From contig NZ_OX296583.1 in the NCBI RefSeq assembly GCF_946463545.1, forward strand, positions 1,620,902 to 1,684,901: a stretch of 64,000 nt of DNA, in the 5' to 3' direction. A program made the translations under genes and the position numbers. Within the stretch, counting starts at the first letter, position 1, and each line of letters opens with the position of its first letter. The notes below the pieces were generated by a model. That model saw only the letters and a program-made list of their open reading frames with translations. It was not told the origin of the DNA and did not search any database. The DNA is from Methanothermococcus thermolithotrophicus DSM 2095. Lineage in GTDB: Archaea > AGJL01 > Methanococci > Methanococcales > Methanococcaceae. Shown one piece after another: positions 33,871 through 45,950 of this stretch.

Positions 33871-33884
33871 GGAAATATATTTCC
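33871..33884. promoter_or_regulatory. NrpR-type operator 1 of nif
   Basis: GGAAatatatTTCC, matching the GGAA-N6-TTCC operator known for the nitrogen repressor NrpR in Methanococcus maripaludis. It lies at the expected start site, so bound repressor would block transcription when nitrogen is plentiful. Confidence 0.9.
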
Positions 33885-33903
33885 GTGTAATTAGCATAAT
33901 ATG

Positions 33904-33917
33904 GGAAATATATTTCC
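33904..33917. promoter_or_regulatory. NrpR-type operator 2 of nif
   Basis: A second GGAAatatatTTCC, exactly 33 bases downstream of the first (same-face spacing of about three helical turns). Tandem sites allow cooperative NrpR binding. Confidence 0.9.
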
Positions 33918-33928
33918 GAACTAAATAA

Positions 33929-34804
<876 letters not shown>

Positions 34805-34874
34805 TTTGTAAAAATGAAAATTAAATTAATTAATGACTCCGCTATTAATTTTTAATAACTGATATGGTGACATA

Positions 34875-35192
34875 ATGAAGATGATAAAGGCAATTGTTAG
34901 GCCAGATAAAGTTGATGATATTGTAGATTCCTTAGAAAACGCTGGTTATCCAGCATTTACAAAAATAAACAGTGTGGGAAGAGGTAAGCAAGGAGGATTG
35001 AAGGTTGGTGAAATATTCTACGATGAATTGCCAAAAACCATATTATTAATTGCTGTAAATGACGACGAAGTAGATGAAGTTGTGGGATTGATAAAATCTT
35101 CAGCCAGTACTGGAAACTTTGGAGATGGTAAAATCTTCATCCAACCTATTACTGAGGCATATACAATTAGAACCGGAGAAACAGGAATTTAA
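34875..35192 (+). CDS. nifI1: PII-family nitrogenase regulator NifI1
   Basis: This 105-residue GlnB-like protein starts MIKAIVRPDKVDDIVDSLEN and has the PII C-terminal signature TGNFGDGKIFIQPITEAYTI. NifI1 and NifI2 together block nitrogenase after ammonium addition by binding NifDK, as shown in M. maripaludis. The T-loop (KINSVGRGKQGGLKVG) lacks the uridylylated Tyr of bacterial GlnB. It has the usual archaeal position between nifH and nifD. Confidence 0.95.
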   Translation: MKMIKAIVRPDKVDDIVDSLENAGYPAFTKINSVGRGKQGGLKVGEIFYDELPKTILLIAVNDDEVDEVVGLIKSSASTGNFGDGKIFIQPITEAYTIRTGETGI

Positions 35193-35206
35193 TAGTTGGT
35201 GAAGTT

Positions 35207-35593
35207 ATGAAGGAGGTTATAGCAATAATAAGGCCCAATACAGTTTCAAAAACTGTAAAAGCACTTGATGTAGTTGGTTTTCCAGCAGTAACAATGGCCG
35301 AGTGCTTTGGAAGGGGAAAACAAAAAGGATATTTTTCAGCAAATCTACCTGAGATTGTTGATATCCAAAAGATCATAGAAGAAGGAGAAAAGGAAGGAAG
35401 ATTTATCAAATACATTCCAAAGAGGCTGATATCCATAGTGGTGGACGATGCTGATGTTCCTTTGGTTGTTGGAATAATCTCAAAAGTAAACAGAACAGGA
35501 AGTTTTGGAGATGGACGTATATTTGTTTTACCAGTGGAAGAGGCCATTAGAGTAAGGACCGGAGAAACTGGAGAAATAGCCATAGGAAACTAA
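35207..35593 (+). CDS. nifI2: PII-family nitrogenase regulator NifI2
   Basis: This 128-residue partner of NifI1 begins MKEVIAIIRPNTVSKTVKAL and has a longer T-loop region (FGRGKQKGYFSANLPEIVDI) than NifI1, as is normal for NifI2. The C-terminal TGSFGDGRIFVLPVEEAI is the PII signature. It senses 2-oxoglutarate and ATP with NifI1 and controls nitrogenase directly. It starts 14 bases after nifI1. Confidence 0.95.
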   Translation: MKEVIAIIRPNTVSKTVKALDVVGFPAVTMAECFGRGKQKGYFSANLPEIVDIQKIIEEGEKEGRFIKYIPKRLISIVVDDADVPLVVGIISKVNRTGSFGDGRIFVLPVEEAIRVRTGETGEIAIGN

Positions 35594-35629
35594 ATTAGTA
35601 TAAAACGATCAGTGAATCAAAGAAACAGT

Positions 35630-35775
35630 GGGAAATCAAAAAAGTTATTTACGGGAGCGAAGCGGAGGTTATCCCTCCAAGAATTACTCGATTTCCCAAT
35701 TTTCAGCCCATTTTAACATATTGGAAATCGAAGGTTCCCATATATCTTATGCTTCGCTAACGCTCAGAAAAGGTG
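35630..35775. repeat. Hairpin-rich palindromic insertion between nifI2 and nifD
   Basis: Nested inverted repeats: tgggaaatc (35630-35638) against gatttccca (35690-35698), ggagg-ttatc-cctcc (35664-35678), and GAA-loop units such as ggagc-gaa-gcgg. The style matches the palindromic element family but the order is less clear. A GGTGAGA site at the end serves nifD. Confidence 0.55.
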
Positions 35776-35782
35776 AGAATAT

Positions 35783-37219
35783 ATGCCATACATATTATTA
35801 GATTGTGATAAATTTATTCCAGAAAGAATGAAACACACGTATGTTTACGATCCTGAAGAAAATATTCTTCCAGCATGTAATACCAACACAGTTCCAGGAG
35901 ACATGACTGAAAGAGGCTGTGCGTTTGCTGGATCAAGAGGTGTGGTTGGAGGGCCTATAAAAGATGCTATTCACATGGTTCACGGACCGATAGGATGTGC
36001 CTACTACACCTGGGGAACAAGAAGGGCATTATCTGATAACGAATTCCACAGAAGATACTGCTTCTGTACTGATATGCAGGAATCAGATATCGTATACGGC
36101 GGTGAAAAAACACTGGAAAAAGCATGTCTTGAAGTCATGGAGGAATTCCCAGAAGCTAGCGGTACATTCATATATACAACATGTCCTACGGCATTAATCG
36201 GGGATAACGTAGATGCAATAGCAAGAAATATTGAAAAAGCTACAAAAAAACCTGCTATTGCTATTAACAGCCCTGGTTTCTGTGGTGTATCTCAGTCTAA
36301 GGGTCACCACGTTTTCAACATGACATTCTACAAATGGTTGAAATTAAAAAGAAAGGAATTCCCAGAAAAATGTATGCCTGAAGAGGAAAAAACCCCTTAC
36401 GATGTAGCTCTGATCGGGGACTACAACATGGATTGGGATGTTGCAGTTATCAAGCCATTACTTGAAAAAATTGGATGCAGATATGTGACAACATTCACTG
36501 GAAATGCATCATTGGATGAGCTCTTCCAGTTAATGGATGTTAAATTAAACATAGTACACTGTCAAAGATCAGCTGAGTATATTGCCCAGATGATAAATGA
36601 TGGATTTGATATACCATATACAAGAGCTACATTCTTTGGGCTGTCAGATATAGCTGAATCACTTTACGATGTTGCTAAAGCTCTGGATTTACCAAAAGAA
36701 AGAGTTGACCAGGTTATAAAAGAAGAAATGGAAGCCATACAACCTAAACTTGACTACTATAAGTCAAAATTGGAAGGAAAAACCTGTATGGTATATGTCG
36801 GGGGACCAAGAACCTGGCACTGGATAAAAGCTATGAAAGATCTTGGGGTCGAATACGTTGCTGCATGCTGTACATTCTCCCACACAGATGATTATGAAAA
36901 GATGAACAAGAACTTCAAAGAAGCTGGAATAAAAGACATATTAGTTATAGATGCACCAAATGAACCAGAACTTGAGGAAGCAGTAAAAACACTTGATCCA
37001 GACTTTATGCTCGTAGGATTAAAAGAAAGATACTTATTCAGAAAATATGGAGTTCCAACAATTAATTCCCACTCTTACGAAGAAGGTCCATATGCAGGTT
37101 ACAGAGGATTTGTGAACTTTGCAAGAGACGTTTACAAAGCGGTATGCCACCCAGTATGGAATGTGTTAAAAGAAGGTGAGGATAAATTCAAAAACTTTAA
37201 AGGGGATTTAAATGAGTGA
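35783..37219 (+). CDS. nifD: Nitrogenase molybdenum-iron protein alpha chain
   Basis: The 478-residue alpha subunit carries the P-cluster cysteines in ACNTNTVPGDMTERGCAFAG and HGPIGCAYYTWGTRR. The cofactor Cys is in NIVHCQRSAEYIAQMI near residue 260, equivalent to Cys275 of Azotobacter. The cofactor His is in SHSYEEGPYAGYRGF near 422. It resembles Mo-type NifD in context because the neighbours are NifE, NifN and a molybdate transporter, and no vnfG/anfG is present. It overlaps nifK by eight bases, so the subunits are made in step. Confidence 0.95.
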   Translation: MPYILLDCDKFIPERMKHTYVYDPEENILPACNTNTVPGDMTERGCAFAGSRGVVGGPIKDAIHMVHGPIGCAYYTWGTRRALSDNEFHRRYCFCTDMQESDIVYGGEKTLEKACLEVMEEFPEASGTFIYTTCPTALIGDNVDAIARNIEKATKKPAIAINSPGFCGVSQSKGHHVFNMTFYKWLKLKRKEFPEKCMPEEEKTPYDVALIGDYNMDWDVAVIKPLLEKIGCRYVTTFTGNASLDELFQLMDVKLNIVHCQRSAEYIAQMINDGFDIPYTRATFFGLSDIAESLYDVAKALDLPKERVDQVIKEEMEAIQPKLDYYKSKLEGKTCMVYVGGPRTWHWIKAMKDLGVEYVAACCTFSHTDDYEKMNKNFKEAGIKDILVIDAPNEPELEEAVKTLDPDFMLVGLKERYLFRKYGVPTINSHSYEEGPYAGYRGFVNFARDVYKAVCHPVWNVLKEGEDKFKNFKGDLNE

Positions 37220-38618
37220 AGTCAACGCAGGCGAAATCTGTTACGTAAAAAAACAGAGAAAAGGAACAATTAATCCAAACAAAATATGCCAACCGATAGG
37301 AGCAATGTGGGCAACAGTTGGTGTAAAAGGTACAATTCCATTTGTTCAAGGTTCCCAGGGGTGTACCACCTATGTTAGGTATGCATTCAACAGACACTTT
37401 AGGGAACCTGTATCTATAGCTACAGCATCTTTCCACGAACATGCTGCAGTATATGGTGGTATGAGCAACCTTGTTGATGGTTTGACTAACTTGGTAGCAA
37501 GGTATGATCCATATTCAATATCAGTAATTACAACGTGCTCCTCTGAAACCATTGGGGATGATATAGAATCATTCATAAGGGCGGCTAAAAAGAATATTGC
37601 CAAAAAATTAGGTGAGGAAAAGGCAGAACTACCAATCATTCCAATCCACTGTCCATCATACCAGGGGAGCCACGTCACAGGATATGACAATGCAGCAAAG
37701 GCTTTCATCAACTACCTTGCAAAAAAAGATGATGAGAAAGAACCCCATAAAATAAACATTATTCCAGGATTTGGTGTTAACCCTGGAGATATACTTGAGA
37801 TAAAGAGAATGCTTGAAATGTTTGGATTAAAGGATCGTGAAGATTACTCAGTATTATTCGATATAAGTGAAACTCTCTACCAACCACTTAGAGAACCGCT
37901 TGGTGAAATACCACACTTCCCAAGACTTGGAACTGAATTGGACGAATTCGTAGATTCTGCAAATGCAAAAGCTACCTTTGCCCTATGTAGAACTGCTGGA
38001 GGAGCTGGTGCAGAAATACTCAGAAGAAGATACAAAGTTGATGCATATTATGGATTGCCAATAGGCTTGAAGAACACCGATGACTTCGTAATAAATGTTG
38101 CAAAGGTCACAGGGAAAAGTATTCCAGATAAGCTCCTTGATGAAAGAGGTAAACTTATAGATGCAATTGCTGATACCATACATTATACAATGGATAAAAA
38201 AGTAGGTATATTCGGTGACCCGGACTTCGTAGTTGCAGTAGCAAGATTCTGCTGTGAAATTGGGATGAAACCGGTTGTTGTAAATACACAGACACCTTCA
38301 AGAACATACCAAAAAGAAATGGAAGCTATTGCCAAAGAACACAATGTTGGCATTGAAGTGCAGTTCTCAGACCTTTGGGACTTTGAGAAGTCAGTTAAAG
38401 AGAAGGAAGTAGATTTACTCATAGGACACCCAAGAGGTGGAGTACCAATAGCCAAAGATATGGATATTGGACTTGTTAGAATGGGATTCCCAATATACGA
38501 TAGAGTTGGGCACTTTAGATGGCCTATGGTAGGATATATGGGAACTTTAAGATTCTTTGATGATATAGTAAACACAATACTTGATACGAAAGTCCCATGG
38601 GATCAAAAACAACAGTAA
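37212..38618 (+). CDS. nifK: Nitrogenase molybdenum-iron protein beta chain
   Basis: The 468-residue beta subunit supplies the other P-cluster ligands: Cys in NPNKICQPIGAMWATVGVKG, GSQGCTTYVRYAFNRHF and TTCSSETIGDDI. It lacks the N-terminal extension of proteobacterial NifK, the usual archaeal form. HCPSYQGSHVTGYDNAAKAF and HPRGGVPIAKDMDIGLVRMG are standard. Its ATG lies within the last codons of nifD. Confidence 0.95.
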   Translation: MSEVNAGEICYVKKQRKGTINPNKICQPIGAMWATVGVKGTIPFVQGSQGCTTYVRYAFNRHFREPVSIATASFHEHAAVYGGMSNLVDGLTNLVARYDPYSISVITTCSSETIGDDIESFIRAAKKNIAKKLGEEKAELPIIPIHCPSYQGSHVTGYDNAAKAFINYLAKKDDEKEPHKINIIPGFGVNPGDILEIKRMLEMFGLKDREDYSVLFDISETLYQPLREPLGEIPHFPRLGTELDEFVDSANAKATFALCRTAGGAGAEILRRRYKVDAYYGLPIGLKNTDDFVINVAKVTGKSIPDKLLDERGKLIDAIADTIHYTMDKKVGIFGDPDFVVAVARFCCEIGMKPVVVNTQTPSRTYQKEMEAIAKEHNVGIEVQFSDLWDFEKSVKEKEVDLLIGHPRGGVPIAKDMDIGLVRMGFPIYDRVGHFRWPMVGYMGTLRFFDDIVNTILDTKVPWDQKQQ

Positions 38619-38639
38619 TTAGTAAAAAAGGATGATATC

Positions 38640-38963
38640 ATGTCTGATATGAAGATTAGATTGGCGAAGTTCTATGACAAGATGGGGAGAGCAGTAAATG
38701 ATGGCGATGAATTTGTGTATGCCACATTTCAGATAGGAAAAGAAGATAAACCAGTTGAAGGGGATGTACTCGTACAGGTAACCAACCTTAAAGGAATTCC
38801 CATAATTGTAGCAAAATACATCATTGAGAAATACGGCTATGGTGGTTATGGAAAACCAAAAGATGTAGGTAGTCTTGATGATGTTAAAAAATTTGGAGTT
38901 CCAGAAGAAACCATAGAAGAAATAAGGAACATTTGTAAATCCAAAGGTATTGACTGGATCTAA
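38640..38963 (+). CDS. Small nif-operon protein, function unknown
   Basis: This is a 107-residue soluble protein between nifK and nifE, 21 bases after nifK and on the same strand. The sequence (KIRLAKFYDKMGRAVNDGDE near the start, KYGYGGYGKPKDVGSLDDVK near residue 62) does not match NifX, NafY, VnfG, AnfG or AnfO as I know them. It has one Cys, a glycine/tyrosine turn and an acidic helical C-terminus ending GIDWI. An accessory or assembly role in nitrogenase is inferred from position. Confidence 0.75.
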   Translation: MSDMKIRLAKFYDKMGRAVNDGDEFVYATFQIGKEDKPVEGDVLVQVTNLKGIPIIVAKYIIEKYGYGGYGKPKDVGSLDDVKKFGVPEETIEEIRNICKSKGIDWI

Positions 38964-39038
38964 TGCTTGGATATGCTACAATTACGATGTGCTGCAATAA
39001 TTCATAACTGATTCATAACTGCCACTTTTTCCCTATTG

Positions 39039-39057
39039 GTGAAACCTCTGGTTTCAC
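39039..39057. other. Hairpin in the gap before nifE
   Basis: Gtgaaacc-tct-ggtttcac, an 8-bp perfect stem with a triloop. It resembles the palindromic element hairpins and may also attenuate transcription. The remaining 38964-39181 is A+T-rich without a gene and could hold a second promoter for nifEN. Confidence 0.5.
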
Positions 39058-39181
39058 ATTTTAAATATTAATATTATTGTGAGAATTTACCTGCGAGAAA
39101 TGTTGGTTATTTGAGTATTATGTTTATCATGATTATTAATTAAAGATTATTTAAAAGGTTATTAATAAATCGTGTGATACT

Positions 39182-40504
39182 ATGCCTTACAAAGTACTTA
39201 ACTGTGACAAAGAAAGACCAGATCGAACTATGCACTGTACTGTTAAAAGTGAGGATGCTGTTATCCCAACCTGTTCTAAATTCACCTTACCGGGTGATTC
39301 TAGTGAAAGATCATGTGCATTTCATGGATGCAGGGTAGTAATATGTAACCAAATAAAAAACGTGGTTCATCTAGTACATTCTCCCATGAGCTGTGCATAC
39401 CATTCATGGGATTACCGTTCCCAATCATACGGATACGGATTTACAACAGATCTTCAAGAAAGCGATATAATATTTGGTGGTGAAGAAAAGTTATTTGAAG
39501 CCATATTAAAGGCTGCAGAGGAGTTCAATCCTGATGCAGTTTTTGTATATGAAACATGCACTCCAGCACTAATAGGAAACGATATACAATCTGTAGCAAA
39601 AAAAGCCAGTGAAAAATTAGGGATACCAGTACTAGCTTTTAATTGTGCAGGTTTTAAAGGTGCAAATCAGAATGCTGGGCATAAAATAGCAAACGAACAG
39701 CTCTTTCAATTAATAGGTACCCGAGAGTGTGAAACCACACCTTACGATGTAAATCTTATAGGAGATTTTGGTGTAAAAGATGCAAAGGTTATAGAGGAAA
39801 TGTTGGGTAAGATAGGAGTTAGAGTCTTATGCTCATTTACAGGTAATGCATCTATTGACAAAATAAGGGTCATGCACAAAGCAAAGGTCAACATCGTACA
39901 CTGCATGAAAAGTTCAATGAATTTAGCCAAAATGATGAGGGAAAAATATGGAATTCCCTATGTGACTGCAAATTTCTTTGGTATTGAAAGCTGTTCAACT
40001 GCGCTGAGACGAATAGGCATGGTTCTTGGGATAGATGAAGAGAAAATTGAAAAGGTTATAAGTGAAAATCTAGAACAAGTGAAACCAAAATTGGAGTTCT
40101 TTAAGGAGAAACTTGAAGGTAAGAAGGTCTTTATATGTCACGGTGCTCAGAGGGTTCTTCACTATATCAATCCTCTTAAAAATGACCTTGGAATGGAAAT
40201 AGTAGGAATAGCCACTTACTTTGGAAATGAAGAAAATTACGAGAAAATACTTAAGAGGGTTCCAGAGGGGACCATCATAATTGACAATCCAAATACTCAC
40301 GAGCTCGAAGAGATAATACTTGAATGTAAACCTGATATATTCGTATCCGACAATAAAACAAGGCAGCTCCTATACAAACTTGGAACTCCATTCATATACG
40401 GAAGGGGGATAAAAAGAAGTTATGTAGGATTTGATGGCTTTGTAAATTTTGCAGAGGAAGTTTATGGAACGGTTAACTCAAAGGTCTGGAAACTTATACG
40501 ATAA
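39182..40504 (+). CDS. nifE: Nitrogenase cofactor biosynthesis scaffold NifE
   Basis: NifE forms with NifN the scaffold on which the iron-molybdenum cofactor is finished. Conserved cysteines are in PTCSKFTLPGDSSERSCAFHGC and VHSPMSCAYHSWDYRS, and NIVHCMKSSMNLAKMM near residue 242 corresponds to the cofactor Cys of NifD. The histidine of NifD is absent, as expected for NifE. The length of 440 residues is normal. GTGATACT precedes the ATG. Confidence 0.94.
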   Translation: MPYKVLNCDKERPDRTMHCTVKSEDAVIPTCSKFTLPGDSSERSCAFHGCRVVICNQIKNVVHLVHSPMSCAYHSWDYRSQSYGYGFTTDLQESDIIFGGEEKLFEAILKAAEEFNPDAVFVYETCTPALIGNDIQSVAKKASEKLGIPVLAFNCAGFKGANQNAGHKIANEQLFQLIGTRECETTPYDVNLIGDFGVKDAKVIEEMLGKIGVRVLCSFTGNASIDKIRVMHKAKVNIVHCMKSSMNLAKMMREKYGIPYVTANFFGIESCSTALRRIGMVLGIDEEKIEKVISENLEQVKPKLEFFKEKLEGKKVFICHGAQRVLHYINPLKNDLGMEIVGIATYFGNEENYEKILKRVPEGTIIIDNPNTHELEEIILECKPDIFVSDNKTRQLLYKLGTPFIYGRGIKRSYVGFDGFVNFAEEVYGTVNSKVWKLIR

Positions 40505-40580
40505 TTTAGTGAGCCATAAAACTGTAGATTGTGAAATGATTAATGTGATTAATGTCGGGAAAGGGTTATGAGGTGAAATT

Positions 40581-42149
40581 ATTTCAATCGAAGTTATTAA
40601 CGAAGAAAAAAGATCACTAACTGTGAATTCCCCAAAAATGGATCAGTTGTTGGGGGGAGTATTTGCAGCACTTGGCATATATAAAACCGTTCCACTTATT
40701 CATGGTTCCCAAGGATGTGCCAGCTATGTAAAGAGTATAATAACAAAACACTTTAAAGAACCTGTTGAAATTGCCACTACGGGTTTTTATGAAGTTTCGG
40801 CAATATATGGGGGCAGAGATAACCTGATCTATGGTATTAAAAATATTGTAAAAAACAAACAGCCGGATTTAGTAGTGGTGATGACAACAGGTTTAAGTGA
40901 GACTATTGGTGAGGACATACAAGGTGGATTAAAAAAAGCCACTGAGGACCTTAGCAAGTGTCACGGTAAATCTACAGGTACTGCAAGCACTTCTAATACG
41001 GCCAAGTTCTGTAAATACGATGAAACGAAACCATGCAACTGTTCAAATCAAAATCATAATGGACAGAGAGGCTGCGAACGTAGAAAATCACGTTGCGGTG
41101 AGACGCAGAAAAGATGTGAGGGTAAAAAATCAAAGTCTTCAGCCAACGTTGTTGCAGTAAGTACCCCATCTTATGTAGGCACCCACATAAATGGATATGA
41201 CAGTACCCTAAAAGAAATTATCAAGGCACTTGTAATGGAAGAAAAAAATAAAACTGGCAGATGTGGAAAGGGCAGTAGTGGCAAATGCAACCCTTCAGGA
41301 CGTTCAAATAAAATAAATATAATACCTGGAGTGGTGAATCCAGGTGATGTTAGAGAAATAAAACACATATGCAGGGAAATGAACATATGTTACACCCTGC
41401 TTACAGATATTACCTCACTTGACCGTCCATTGAGACGTCCAAAGGAAAAGTTTCCAGAATGTGAAACAACAGTTGATGCCATAAAAAGAGCTCCGAATTC
41501 AAAGGCCACAATATCATTTGGAATCGAAGGTATTAGTGGGGCAAAATATCTTGAAAACTTTGGGGTTACATCCTACAATCTAAAGTTCCCAATAGGAATT
41601 GAAAATACAGATAACTTTGTAAAGACATTATCTGAAATATCAGGTAAAGAAATTCCAGATTCCATATGGGACGAGAGAGGCTATGCAATAGATGCCATGG
41701 TAGATGCAAACGGTGTTTTGAGAAACAGAAAAGTTGCAATATTTGGTGATCCAGATAAAGTTATAGGTTTAACAGATTTTGCATTTGAAATGGGAATGAA
41801 AGTCATAGCTGTCCTTTCTCCTACTAAAACTCCATATTTCACCTCTGAAATGGAAAGAATATCAAGGGAGAATGATGTAAAAATCACCGTATTTGAAAAT
41901 GGCGATTTATATCAGCTCCATAAGTTCATAAAGAAAAATCCTATCGACCTGATTATCGGGGATTATAGGGGAAGATATATAGCAAATGAAGAAGAAATAC
42001 CTTTGCTTAGGGTTGGATTCCCAGTTATCGATAGGTACGGATACCATAGGAAACCTATGTTAGGATATAGTGGAGCATTGAGAATTGCAGAAGATGCTGC
42101 AAATCTCTTGGTAGGATCATCAGAAACCTATAAAACTTTACACATTTGA
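40581..42149 (+). CDS. nifN: Nitrogenase cofactor biosynthesis scaffold NifN with cysteine-rich insertions and apparent ATT start
   Basis: NifN partners NifE. The core is clear: VNSPKMDQLLGGVFAALGIY, LIHGSQGCASYVKSIITKHF and VSTPSYVGTHINGYDSTLKE. A GTG at 40623 gives a start, but it lacks a ribosome site and would delete the usual first residues. The frame continues upstream (ISIEVINEEKRSLT) to GAGGTGA at 40570-40576, with ATT at 40581 (or 40578) as the best start. Two hydrophilic insertions are not in ordinary NifN: about 64 residues encoded at 40953-41144 with seven cysteines (CKYDETKPCNCSN, RRKSRCGETQKRC), and about 23 residues at 41241-41309 (GRCGKGSSGKCNPSGRS). They could bind metal. Confidence 0.9.
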   Translation: MSIEVINEEKRSLTVNSPKMDQLLGGVFAALGIYKTVPLIHGSQGCASYVKSIITKHFKEPVEIATTGFYEVSAIYGGRDNLIYGIKNIVKNKQPDLVVVMTTGLSETIGEDIQGGLKKATEDLSKCHGKSTGTASTSNTAKFCKYDETKPCNCSNQNHNGQRGCERRKSRCGETQKRCEGKKSKSSANVVAVSTPSYVGTHINGYDSTLKEIIKALVMEEKNKTGRCGKGSSGKCNPSGRSNKINIIPGVVNPGDVREIKHICREMNICYTLLTDITSLDRPLRRPKEKFPECETTVDAIKRAPNSKATISFGIEGISGAKYLENFGVTSYNLKFPIGIENTDNFVKTLSEISGKEIPDSIWDERGYAIDAMVDANGVLRNRKVAIFGDPDKVIGLTDFAFEMGMKVIAVLSPTKTPYFTSEMERISRENDVKITVFENGDLYQLHKFIKKNPIDLIIGDYRGRYIANEEEIPLLRVGFPVIDRYGYHRKPMLGYSGALRIAEDAANLLVGSSETYKTLHI

Positions 42150-42497
42150 GCCATTTGAGCAAAATTTATTTTTGCGAATATCTTTTATTTTAAGATATTT
42201 TTACTTTTATTTTTTATTTTTTAACAACTATATATTGTATTTAACAATATAAAAAGGTTTTTAACCGTTTTTTGGGGAAAACGACTAATCTTTGTATTTT
42301 TCAGCTAAAATATGGAAAATAATATATACCAAAAAATATTAGTTAGCAATTATATTAAGTTAGTATCTGTATAAAATAGTAATTAATATTAATTAACATA
42401 TTGTAAAAATGATGAATTTTGAAAAAATAAACGATATCGACAATAAAATACCCCAGTATCGAAAAGTTTATATAATATTATTATATATCATGTGATA

Positions 42498-42511
42498 GGA
42501 AAGAGATTTCC
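42498..42511. promoter_or_regulatory. NrpR-type operator 1 of mod
   Basis: GGAAagagatTTCC, about 31 bases downstream of the TATA start, the same layout as at the nif promoter. Confidence 0.85.
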
Positions 42512-42530: not shown

Positions 42531-42544
42531 GGAAATATACTTCC
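42531..42544. promoter_or_regulatory. NrpR-type operator 2 of mod
   Basis: GGAAatatacTTCC, exactly 33 bases after the first, the same spacing as at nif. Molybdate uptake is therefore probably repressed together with nitrogenase. Confidence 0.85.
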
Positions 42545-42565
42545 GATTAAAATATGGGGGATATT

Positions 42566-43381
42566 GTGAAAAAGGCATTATTGCTTATATTGGGTGTTAT
42601 CGTAGCATTTTCTGGATGTGTTGATAATCAACCAGATGTAAAAATAACAAACTTTGAAGATCTAGGAAACGATGGAGTAACAATATCCATAGGAAACCCA
42701 GATCACGTTCCAGCAGGAAAATATGCGGTCAAAGTCATAGATAACTTGAAAAGATCGAATCCAGAACTTGCAGATAAAATATTAAAAAACGTGGTTTCAA
42801 AAGATGCCAATGTTAGGGCAGTTTTGGATAAAGTAGTTTCAAAAGAAGTGGATGCAGGATTTGTTTATAGAACCGATGCGTTTATGGAAAAAGATAAAGT
42901 AGAAATCATTACAATTCCAAAAGAAATTAATGTAGTCCCTGAATATCCTATTGCAGTATTAAAAGACAGTGATAATAAAAAAGAATCAAATGAGTTTGTG
43001 AAATTTGTTCTTTCAAAAGAAGGGCAGGAAATACTAACAAAATATGGGTTTGTAAGTCCAATAGATAACCCAAAACCTTACAGTCCTGAAAAAATTGAAG
43101 GAACTATTGTAGTTTATGCTGCTGCGTCATTAACAGATGCATTTAAAGATATAGGAAATGAATTTGAAAAAGAGACAGGATGTAAAGTAAAATTATTATT
43201 TGCGAGCTCAGGTTCTCTGAGGCAGAAAATAGAAGGTGGAGCAGTAGGTGGAGAAAGTGGAGCAGATGTATTTGCTTCAGCAAGTTTAAAACATATGAAT
43301 CTTCTTGAAAATGAAGGATCTGTAGAAGACCACACCATATTTGCAAAGAATGAACTTGTAGTTATAACTCCAAAACAATAA
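42566..43381 (+). CDS. modA: Molybdate-binding lipoprotein ModA, circularly permuted
   Basis: This is the substrate-binding protein of the molybdate ABC transporter. The GTG at 42566 follows GGGGGAT and gives a lipoprotein signal KKALLLILGVIVAFSGC with lipobox Cys18. The rest is in swapped order. Residues 24-168 (ITNFEDLGNDGVTISIGNP, HVPAGKYA, ending KYGFVSPIDN) match the second part of ModA. Residues 180-271 (IVVYAAASLTDAFKDIGNEF, FASSGSLRQK, ending KNELVVITPKQ) match the first part. A linker KPYSPEKIEG joins the old ends. Nothing seems to be missing, since 271 residues is the family length. The new ends fall at a domain-crossing strand, so the fold could survive. It lies directly behind the NrpR-type sites. 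Confidence 0.88.
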   Translation: MKKALLLILGVIVAFSGCVDNQPDVKITNFEDLGNDGVTISIGNPDHVPAGKYAVKVIDNLKRSNPELADKILKNVVSKDANVRAVLDKVVSKEVDAGFVYRTDAFMEKDKVEIITIPKEINVVPEYPIAVLKDSDNKKESNEFVKFVLSKEGQEILTKYGFVSPIDNPKPYSPEKIEGTIVVYAAASLTDAFKDIGNEFEKETGCKVKLLFASSGSLRQKIEGGAVGGESGADVFASASLKHMNLLENEGSVEDHTIFAKNELVVITPKQ

Positions 43382-43415
43382 TTCCAAAGAATATCCTGCA
43401 AAACAAGTGGTGGAC

Positions 43416-44186
43416 ATGCGACTAATAATCTTTAGATTTTTGATGGGGCTAAGTATTGGTGTATTTATTTTATTGGTAATCATGCCCTTTGTGGCATTAT
43501 TATTCAACATATTTTCAAGCCCTTTAGATATGACTATTGATTACCAATCAATACTACGTCCCTTAATTTTAAGTGTAACTACTTCTCTTGTATCAACGTT
43601 AATCTCACTTTTTGTTGGGATTCCACTGGCATATATACTCACTTACAAAAAATTTCCACTGAAAGAAATATTTGATACCATTGTTAACCTCCCTCTCGTA
43701 GTACCTCCAACTGTTGCAGGATATTTGCTTTTAATAACTTTTGGAAGGTACGGATTGGTGGGATACCCACTACATGTATTGGGGATCACGATAATGTTCA
43801 CGACTTTTGCAATTGTTATGGCCCAGACGTTTGTAGCCCTTCCTTTTATGGTTAGAAGTATTAGGGCTTCTCTTCAAGATATATCTCCGTCATTAATTGA
43901 TGCTGCAAAAACACTTGGTGCAAGTGACTATGAAATATTTAAGGAGATAATTTTGCCTTTATCAAAAGCTGGAATTATATCTGGAATAATATTGACTTAT
44001 GCCAGAGCAATAGGAGAATTTGGGGCCACAGTGATGGTCTGTGGGCTTTTAGACACCCTACCTATAGCAATATTCAATAACGCATTGAGTGGAAACAGAG
44101 ACATTGCAAATATCCTATCATTAATTCTAATTGTTATATCGTTTGGAATTCTGGCGTTATTTAAAAGAATTGCAGCCAAAGATTGA
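43416..44186 (+). CDS. modB: Molybdate ABC transporter permease
   Basis: ModB is the membrane subunit. It has about six helices and the ABC-permease EAA loop DAAKTLGASDYEIFKEIILP near residue 168, followed by ARAIGEFGATVMV, typical of molybdate and sulfate permeases. The ATG at 43416 begins MRLIIFRFLMG and gives 256 residues. It follows modA by 34 bases. GGTGG stands close to the ATG, so the start could also be the GTG at 43407. Confidence 0.92.
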   Translation: MRLIIFRFLMGLSIGVFILLVIMPFVALLFNIFSSPLDMTIDYQSILRPLILSVTTSLVSTLISLFVGIPLAYILTYKKFPLKEIFDTIVNLPLVVPPTVAGYLLLITFGRYGLVGYPLHVLGITIMFTTFAIVMAQTFVALPFMVRSIRASLQDISPSLIDAAKTLGASDYEIFKEIILPLSKAGIISGIILTYARAIGEFGATVMVCGLLDTLPIAIFNNALSGNRDIANILSLILIVISFGILALFKRIAAKD

Positions 44187-44229
44187 GGTGGGATATATTG
44201 GATATAAGTGGTAAAATACGGTGGAACTT

Positions 44230-45396
44230 ATGATAGAAATTAGTAATGTATCTAAAGGACTAAATGGGCAAGAAATTTTAAACGACATAAATTTAAGTGT
44301 AAATGATAACGAAATAATGGTTCTATTAGGACCAAGTGGTTGTGGAAAAACCACCCTTCTAAAAATTATAGCAGGATTGGTAAAACAGGATACTGGCAAC
44401 ATAATAGTTAACAATACAGTGATAAATAATCTCCTTCCGCAGAAAAGAAATATAGGGTTTGTTTTCCAGGAGTACGCCCTATTTCCACATAAGAATGTTT
44501 TTGAAAATATAGCCTTTGGACTAAGAATAAGGAAGATGCCAGAACATGAGATTAAAAATAGAGTAAATGAAATAATGGGAGCTCTTGAAATTGAGCATCT
44601 AACGAATAAAAAAATATCTCAACTGAGTGGTGGACAGAAACAGAGGGTTGCACTAGCAAGGGCTTTGGTAATAAATCCCGATGTTTTACTATTGGATGAG
44701 CCATTAAGTGCTTTAGATCCAGTTTTAAGGGAAAAGTTAAGGGAGGAATTAAAAATCACACTGAAAAAATTGGGGGTTACTGGAATCTATGTGACCCACG
44801 ATTTAACAGAAGCCATGTTGTTGGGGGATAATGTTGCAGTAATGAATAAAGGAATAATTCAACAGATTGGAAAGCCTGATGAAATATTTTATCATCCAAA
44901 AAACGAATTTGTTGCAAAATTTGTTGGGGTAAAGAATATTTTGAAAGGAACAGTATTAAAATTAGAAAATGACACTGCAATAGTGGAAATAAATGGTAAT
45001 AACAATTCAAAAACATCGTTTAAAATAAGAGTTAGGAAATATCCAATATTCGAAACCAGAAAAGAGATATCCCTATGCATTCATCCAGAGGATGTTGTAT
45101 TGGATAGGGTTAAAACCGGAGATGTTGAAAATCAAAGAATTAGGGAGCTCCTTACATCATTTGGAAATAACACAATAAGGGGAAAGGTTATCGACATAGT
45201 TCCAAATGGTTCAGTATTAAAAGTTGCTGTAGATATAGGTAGTATGGAGATGTATGCAATTACCACAAGAAATTTATTGAAATACGATATAAATGATGAA
45301 GTATGGGTTTCATTCAGTAAAGATGCCCCCCACCCAATGTGTGGTAAAAAGTGCAAATCTAAAAATCGAAAATCTTCATGTAAGTGTAAAAACTGA
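44230..45396 (+). CDS. modC: Molybdate ABC transporter ATP-binding protein with cysteine-rich tail
   Basis: ModC drives molybdate import. LLGPSGCGKTTLLKIIAGL is Walker A (about residue 34), QLSGGQKQRVALARALVI is the ABC signature, and LLLDEPLSALDP is Walker B. A C-terminal regulatory domain of TOBE type runs from about residue 235. The last 18 residues, HPMCGKKCKSKNRKSSCKCK, hold four cysteines and many lysines, unusual for ModC. The ATG at 44230 follows GGTGGAA; 388 residues is normal. Confidence 0.92.
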   Translation: MIEISNVSKGLNGQEILNDINLSVNDNEIMVLLGPSGCGKTTLLKIIAGLVKQDTGNIIVNNTVINNLLPQKRNIGFVFQEYALFPHKNVFENIAFGLRIRKMPEHEIKNRVNEIMGALEIEHLTNKKISQLSGGQKQRVALARALVINPDVLLLDEPLSALDPVLREKLREELKITLKKLGVTGIYVTHDLTEAMLLGDNVAVMNKGIIQQIGKPDEIFYHPKNEFVAKFVGVKNILKGTVLKLENDTAIVEINGNNNSKTSFKIRVRKYPIFETRKEISLCIHPEDVVLDRVKTGDVENQRIRELLTSFGNNTIRGKVIDIVPNGSVLKVAVDIGSMEMYAITTRNLLKYDINDEVWVSFSKDAPHPMCGKKCKSKNRKSSCKCKN

Positions 45397-45455: not shown

Positions 45456-45950
45456 ATGTCAGCCATAACAATCAAAAAAGATATAGACGAGATTAAAAGG
45501 AAGCTAACTGAAAAAAATACTGAAGTTTTAATGGTAATAGGTTGCGGTAAATGTGCAAAGATCAGTAAAACTGGAGGTCCTGATGAAGTAAAAGAGATGA
45601 AGAAAATATTAGCTGAAAATGGGTTCAAAATATTTGAACATGATGAATTACCTGATTCCTTAGAAGATAGTTTATGCAAATACGATGCTGTTAAGGCATT
45701 GGCAGAAGATGTTGGAGGGAGCTCCTTTGATTCCATATTGGTACTTGCATGTGGGGCAGGTTTAAAATGTGTTGCAGATAATTTTGAAAATAAAAAAGTG
45801 ATTTCAGGGTTAAACACCATAGGAGTGGGCATAAAAGACAAACTCACATGTATTGCATGCGGTGATTGTAGTTTTGATGACGGCATGTGTAAAAGATTGG
45901 CAATACTTGAAGAGATAAATGAAAATTTGAAAAAATCATATTTTAATTAA
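45456..45950 (+). CDS. MetV-like zinc-binding protein (methylene-THF reductase C-terminal type)
   Basis: This 164-residue protein resembles MetV, the small zinc-binding partner of MetF in some anaerobes. VIGCGKCAKISKTGGPDEVK near residue 29, VLACGAGLKCVA near 94 and KLTCIACGDCSFDDGMCKR near 130 hold the paired cysteines of the family. No MetF is next to it, so in this methanogen it may serve another one-carbon or redox enzyme. A strong TAGGAGGT site precedes the ATG. It follows modC by 60 bases and may share its transcript. Confidence 0.75.
   Translation: MSAITIKKDIDEIKRKLTEKNTEVLMVIGCGKCAKISKTGGPDEVKEMKKILAENGFKIFEHDELPDSLEDSLCKYDAVKALAEDVGGSSFDSILVLACGAGLKCVADNFENKKVISGLNTIGVGIKDKLTCIACGDCSFDDGMCKRLAILEEINENLKKSYFN

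Follow-up and report, generated by a model that had tools for sequence, protein, structure and literature searches.

Natural circular permutation has a described precedent among the binding proteins of ABC importers. TpMglB-2 (Tp0684), which binds glucose and is a Type I lipoprotein of Treponema pallidum, is a published natural circular permutant, for which the class 'Type Ic / Cluster Bc' was proposed; it still binds its ligand and closes, and the authors raised tethering as a factor that might favour such a topology (PMC4990184). The molybdate-binding protein ModA is represented by solved structures from E. coli (1AMF), C. difficile (4kd5) and L. monocytogenes (7tav). For the thermophilic diazotroph Methanothermococcus thermolithotrophicus, a nifHI1I2DKXEN cluster with adjacent modABC has been described, together with diazotrophic growth that tolerates tungstate; of the three modA genes, the nif-adjacent one alone is accompanied by modBC, and in the transcriptome it alone is strongly induced under N2 fixation, with a log2FC of 5.5 (PMC9765008). 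That paper does not mention a permutation of modA.

The present analysis deals with a window of 64,000 nucleotides of M. thermolithotrophicus DSM 2095 (contig NZ_OX296583.1), to which all unprefixed coordinates refer, and with the modA gene at 42566..43381 on its plus strand. With a probability of about 0.88, this gene would encode a complete circular permutant of ModA that works as a molybdate-binding lipoprotein, feeds its own ModBC and, in the Methanococcaceae, stands under nif-like control. The permuted protein is like the three ModA of known structure in sequence family, predicted elements, ligand residues and modBC context, and differs from them in the order of the halves, the termini, the lobe that is lipid-anchored and the presence of a new linker. 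The family that it represents is the Type II, ModA-family counterpart of TpMglB-2, and like it is lipid-anchored. Both are natural permutants and binding lipoproteins of ABC importers, whereas TpMglB-2 belongs to the Type I sugar-binding proteins and had around 100 residues moved, in a part that is poorly conserved. Membership of Cluster Bc, with its Type I sugar-binding fold, was considered for the window protein and rejected, as it matches ModA and Type II families only. This is apparently the first permuted ModA to be described, natural permutation of other binding proteins being already known; no report of one was found in the non-subscription literature searched.

The Order of Parts in the Window ModA

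The gene encodes 271 amino acids followed by a stop and was identified from profile, phmmer and model evidence. Its start codon is GTG, and an alternative in-frame ATG is possible at 42554. A signal peptide with a lipobox cysteine (...AFSG-C18; 42566..42619, plus strand) was read from the sequence and the alignment, in which this cysteine is invariant in all 18 permuted proteins (alignment A2). What follows is the normally C-terminal part of ModA, now placed first (residues 24-168; 42635..43069, plus strand), as delimited by alignments to 1AMF and to the profile TIGR01256. An 11-residue linker, PKPYSPEKIEG (residues 169-179; 43070..43102, plus strand), joins what was the C-terminus to what was the N-terminus, and its length and sequence differ between permuted relatives. 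The normally N-terminal part comes last (residues 180-271; 43103..43378, plus strand), by alignment with residues 2-91 of 1AMF, and the chain stops just past the strand VVITPK.

In the profile search, TIGR01256 (modA) matched the window protein with 168.2 bits, above the curated cutoff of 62.5 for the family, in two stretches of reversed order. The best of these pairs query residues 19-161 with profile positions 85-217 of 217, so that the end of the profile lies at the start of the protein. A phmmer search of solved structures aligned residues 104-231 of E. coli ModA (1AMF) with query 28-163 and residues 2-91 with query 178-270, and chance is excluded as the source of the ModA match by an E-value of 2.5e-49. 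Because the 1AMF segments align in swapped order, the halves are reversed without duplication. Nothing substantial has been lost, and every part of the parent chain is present once, rotated. The window protein thus departs from the normal N-to-C order of the ModA halves. The sequence-only reading had called it a full-length circular permutant, a description upheld by the TIGR01256 match, the 1AMF alignment and the rotation of 20 elements in the predicted model; the separate alignment of the two parts that it proposed places each on ModA in swapped order, and no normal-order ModA aligns with the protein end to end. The WtpA/TupA tungstate-binding proteins are related archaeal Type II oxyanion-binding proteins, and an identity with them was rejected, the scores lying far below the WtpA cutoffs (47.6 bits against 355 for NF003196 and 32.3 against 242.75 for TIGR03730).

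An artefact of assembly or annotation, in which two modA fragments had been placed in the wrong order, is next to inconceivable. The one observation in its favour is a frameshift near the start of modA in a draft genome (L035), and against it stand the single-contig genome of the window, an unchanged order of the halves across three genera whose assemblies are closed or independent, as well as in bacteria from other sequencing groups, and a conserved reading frame with dN/dS of about 0.2. An assembly error at the junction, which the earlier reading had kept in view, is refuted because six other genomes of the family and independent bacterial MAGs share the order. A split gene or pseudogene is likewise excluded by the intact frames and the dN/dS values, with the frameshifted draft copy L035 as the exception. 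In that copy the shift is of one base (L035:16482-16640) and is either a sequencing error or the mark of a young pseudogene.

Predicted Structure

The AlphaFold2 model of the permuted ModA, made with 18 permuted relatives as the alignment, reached a pLDDT of 91.1 and a pTM of 0.83; a canonical Methanococcus ModA run likewise served as the control (pLDDT 85.4). After the signal helix, the elements of the control run E H E H E H E E and then H E H H E H E H E E H H, and those of the permuted model run H E H H E H E H E E H H and then E H E H E H E E. Comparison of the two lists shows the control's 20 elements cyclically rotated, one-to-one, with none missing and none duplicated. The missing strand that the earlier reading had named as a sign against permutation is therefore not seen, all 20 elements being matched after rotation, and the predicted model has the complete two-lobed Type II fold. 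The new C-terminus after VVITPK is where a chain of the known Type II topology leaves lobe I, and the new ends coincide with the crossing of the chain between the lobes.

In Foldseek searches, the canonical control aligned with crystal structures of ModA over 230-237 columns, with a best TMt of 0.96 (E 2.6e-30), whereas the permuted model matched the ModA 7tav over only 160 columns and found its best full-length sequential matches in PstS2 (4h1x) and OpuAC. This pattern, full-length for the control and partial on ModA for the permuted model, is what a permutation would demand of the two models. It also carries a warning: to a profile of fixed order or a sequential search of structures, only half of such a permuted protein is visible.

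The two sequential matches come from other families. PstS2 of Streptococcus pneumoniae (4h1x) matches the fold of the permuted model over 251 columns and runs colinear across the permuted junction (query 127-217 with chain 104-193), unlike it in belonging to the phosphate family, at 15% identity. Because it is colinear across the junction in both sequence and fold, PstS2 looks like a Type II protein that was naturally permuted on its own account and now has its halves in the order seen here; no published statement of such a permutation was found in the literature searched. OpuAC of Bacillus subtilis (2b4m, 3chg) gives a full-length sequential match over 270-278 columns, with a low TM-score (TMq 0.46-0.49), and is a member of the betaine-binding family; presumably it is permuted relative to ProX. 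The earlier statement that natural permutation is rare in binding proteins holds as far as rarity goes, but precedents exist in TpMglB-2 (PMC4990184) and apparently in PstS2.

Conservation and modelling together suggest that the permuted chain would take up the usual two-lobed ModA fold, close on molybdate and dock on ModB in the normal way. The N-terminal lipid anchor would now be attached to lobe II and not to lobe I.

The mod Operon and Its Control

The nif operon nifH-I1-I2-D-K-X-E-N (33929..42149, plus strand) lies immediately upstream of mod; its extent was read from the ORFs, and its gene names were assigned by comparison of the gene order with PMC9765008. Between the two operons, an archaeal promoter-like element of the BRE/TATA type, CGAAAAGTTTATATA, was read in the sequence upstream of modA (42460..42474, plus strand), and a similar string is present upstream of modA in L034 and L035. 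A scan for GGAA-N6-TTCC gave two NrpR-type operators on the plus strand, GGAAAGAGATTTCC at 42498..42511 and GGAAATATACTTCC at 42531..42544. The nif promoter upstream of nifH has such a pair at 33871 and 33904 (33871-33917), and the operator pairs of the mod and nif promoters have an identical spacing of 33 bp. At least one such operator is found upstream of the permuted modA in 7 of 7 Methanococcaceae copies, and the same scan found none upstream of the bacterial and other archaeal copies.

Downstream of modA lies modB (43407..44186, plus strand), a molybdate ABC permease (TIGR02141, 204.1 bits against a cutoff of 182.6) that the trees place in a clade associated with permuted ModA, and then modC (44221..45396, plus strand), the ATP-binding subunit with a TOBE domain, recognised from its ORF and profile searches. 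The sequence-only reading had taken modB, modC and the NrpR-type operators to be intact, and all were confirmed to be intact, both GGAA-N6-TTCC operators included. A modB gene directly follows the permuted modA in each of the 27 non-redundant loci, and modC comes next wherever there is enough flank, with the exception of L160, where the ORF after modB has no modC match. In four Methanococcaceae loci (the window, L037, L038 and L039) the mod operon is located 3' of nifN. In Desulforudis the permuted mod operon stands 3' of a different, bacterial nif cluster. Its ModABC proteins are 61-65% identical to those of the window, as against 54-56% and 46-47% for NifD and NifK, and because these identities differ, mod need not have travelled with nif.

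The gene 3' of modC in the window (45456-45950) encodes a cysteine-rich protein of 164 amino acids that has no Pfam or NCBIfam match. A relative is also located 3' of modC in five other loci (L036, L037, L038, L039 and L054), and the protein is possibly linked to the mod operon.

Ligand Positions and Function

The ligand positions of E. coli ModA considered here are S12, S39, A125, V152 and Y170. All five are kept in the window protein, as S188, S215, A50, V83 and Y101, respectively. Across the permuted set, the equivalents of S39, V152 and Y170 are invariant (27/27) and that of A125 is kept in 26 of 27. The equivalent of S12, a serine in the window, is a glycine in L037, L038 and L039 and a valine in eleven deltaproteobacterial-type copies (L063-L066, L150-L156), and these replacements may reflect a changed oxyanion preference. 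Pairwise dN/dS values of permuted modA were 0.12-0.24, and the gene is under purifying selection in independent genomes.

The gene order of the window is the published nif-modABC order, and the genome has three modA homologues, the same number as was reported. Because both agree, we infer that the window modA is the one induced under N2 fixation (PMC9765008). The permuted ModA is a real and conserved protein and most likely a functional one, since purifying selection, the ligand positions, the nif-spaced operators and the published induction all speak for its working. The claim of the sequence-only reading that it is probably functional thus gains support from dN/dS, the ligand residues and the operators, and from the induction described in PMC9765008.

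It is very unlikely that the permuted protein has taken up another job, as a tungstate or other oxyanion receptor or a regulatory one, and is no longer a molybdate donor. The glycine at the S12 position in three Methanococcaceae copies and the valine in 11 deltaproteobacterial-type copies would fit such a change, as would the tungstate-tolerant diazotrophy, which means that selectivity may differ (PMC9765008). However, the window protein retains all five ligand positions, its mod operon adjoins nif and has nif-type operators, and mod is transcribed more strongly when N2 is fixed with Mo (PMC9765008).

Distribution and Evolutionary History

Permuted modA was found at 27 loci, all with the same order and break points, the half order being verified at each locus with separate half queries and half profiles. 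Six more Methanococcaceae genomes have a full permuted ModA (61-82% identity), the frameshifted L035 being one of them, which makes three genera when that of the window is counted. Among GTDB representatives, permuted ModA of full length turned up in Desulforudis/Desulfotomaculum MAGs of the Bacillota (around 62% identity), in three other Euryarchaeota (41-46%) and in Tharpellota/"Deltaproteobacteria" (34-35%). Further permuted copies came from phylum-wide searches, in 10 of 395, 3 of 23, 2 of 399 and 1 of 296 genomes, and in the order of Desulforudis 4 of 113 genomes had one. The Nitrospirota copy (L056), on a contig of 5.5 kb, is the only one among the 296 genomes of its phylum and may be mis-binned. 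Plasmid-borne permuted copies were also sought and rejected, since the ten best plasmid matches were all two pieces joined, as expected of normal-order modA, at 38-40% identity. The permuted order, for which the earlier reading had suggested a search of relatives, is thus no oddity of a single gene: it marks an old family, spread over archaea and bacteria, that has a ModB clade to itself.

Permuted and normal ModA coexist within the same order of methanogens. Two more ModA homologues of normal order (L040:9237-10211 and L041:7668-8444) share one genome; neither was seen to adjoin a modB of the permuted-clade type, and the L040 copy lies beside two putative membrane proteins.

For the ModA tree, the halves were aligned separately and then concatenated, with support given as ultrafast bootstrap/SH-aLRT; the canonical ModA rows were gathered by similarity to the permuted query and are a non-exhaustive sample of normal ModA. 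The permuted ModA proteins form one clade (99/98), as do the ModB proteins that adjoin them (100/97), and because each forms one clade, a single old permutation followed by cross-domain transfer is favoured, though without proof. The tree of the C-half alone also gave one permuted clade (93), and that of the N-half alone, with 90 columns and poor resolution, gave two changes instead of one. The idea that halves of separate ModA lineages had been fused was set aside on the one C-half clade (93), the N-half being too short to decide.

Two or more origins, with the Tharpellota/deltaproteobacterial-type proteins permuted independently of those of the archaea and Bacillota, are improbable. The deltaproteobacterial-type proteins do have a long linker, a long branch and a valine at the S12 position, and an AU test of one ModB alternative, which joined them with nearby canonical rows, did not reject it (p-AU 0.26). 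Against separate origins are break points that are equal within a few residues and the clade support for both ModA (99/98) and ModB (100/97).

Tandem duplication followed by trimming is a standard route to circular permutation, and we infer that the permuted modA arose in this way. After a tandem duplication of modA, copy 1 would have lost its first part and copy 2 its second. This would have happened once, in the distant past, and archaea and bacteria living in anaerobic habitats would since have exchanged the permuted modABC operon. No tandem modA intermediate was found within the permuted clade. A Desulfovibrio MAG carries two normal-order modA genes in overlapping tandem (L070:5851-7294), which are unrelated to that clade and show the sort of arrangement through which a permutation by duplication has to pass.

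What the New Topology May Mean

Whether the rearrangement was of use to its bearers is a separate question. The balance tips slightly towards a selectively neutral permutation, with normal ModA function and a new topology that brings no advantage. Many normal modABC operons exist in the same order of methanogens, some of them near nif, and two-lobed proteins generally tolerate permutation (PMC4990184). On the other side, long-term retention and the constant pairing with one ModB clade hint at co-adaptation without proving it. A more speculative idea, to which we give rather low credence, is that the permuted ModA and its matching ModB clade co-evolved, and that anchoring by lobe II alters how the protein is held over the importer or released from it. 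If this is true, a change in the topology of a binding protein would have been selected for tethering, and the operon would have spread between the domains of life as a docking-mode unit.

It is seldom that a natural permutation can be studied with its two forms, its partner transporter and its phylogeny all available. The permuted ModA family makes it testable whether the lobe that bears the lipid anchor matters to docking on the importer, a matter raised without a test for TpMglB-2. In a model thermophilic diazotroph, the only modA induced for N2 fixation would be the permuted one.
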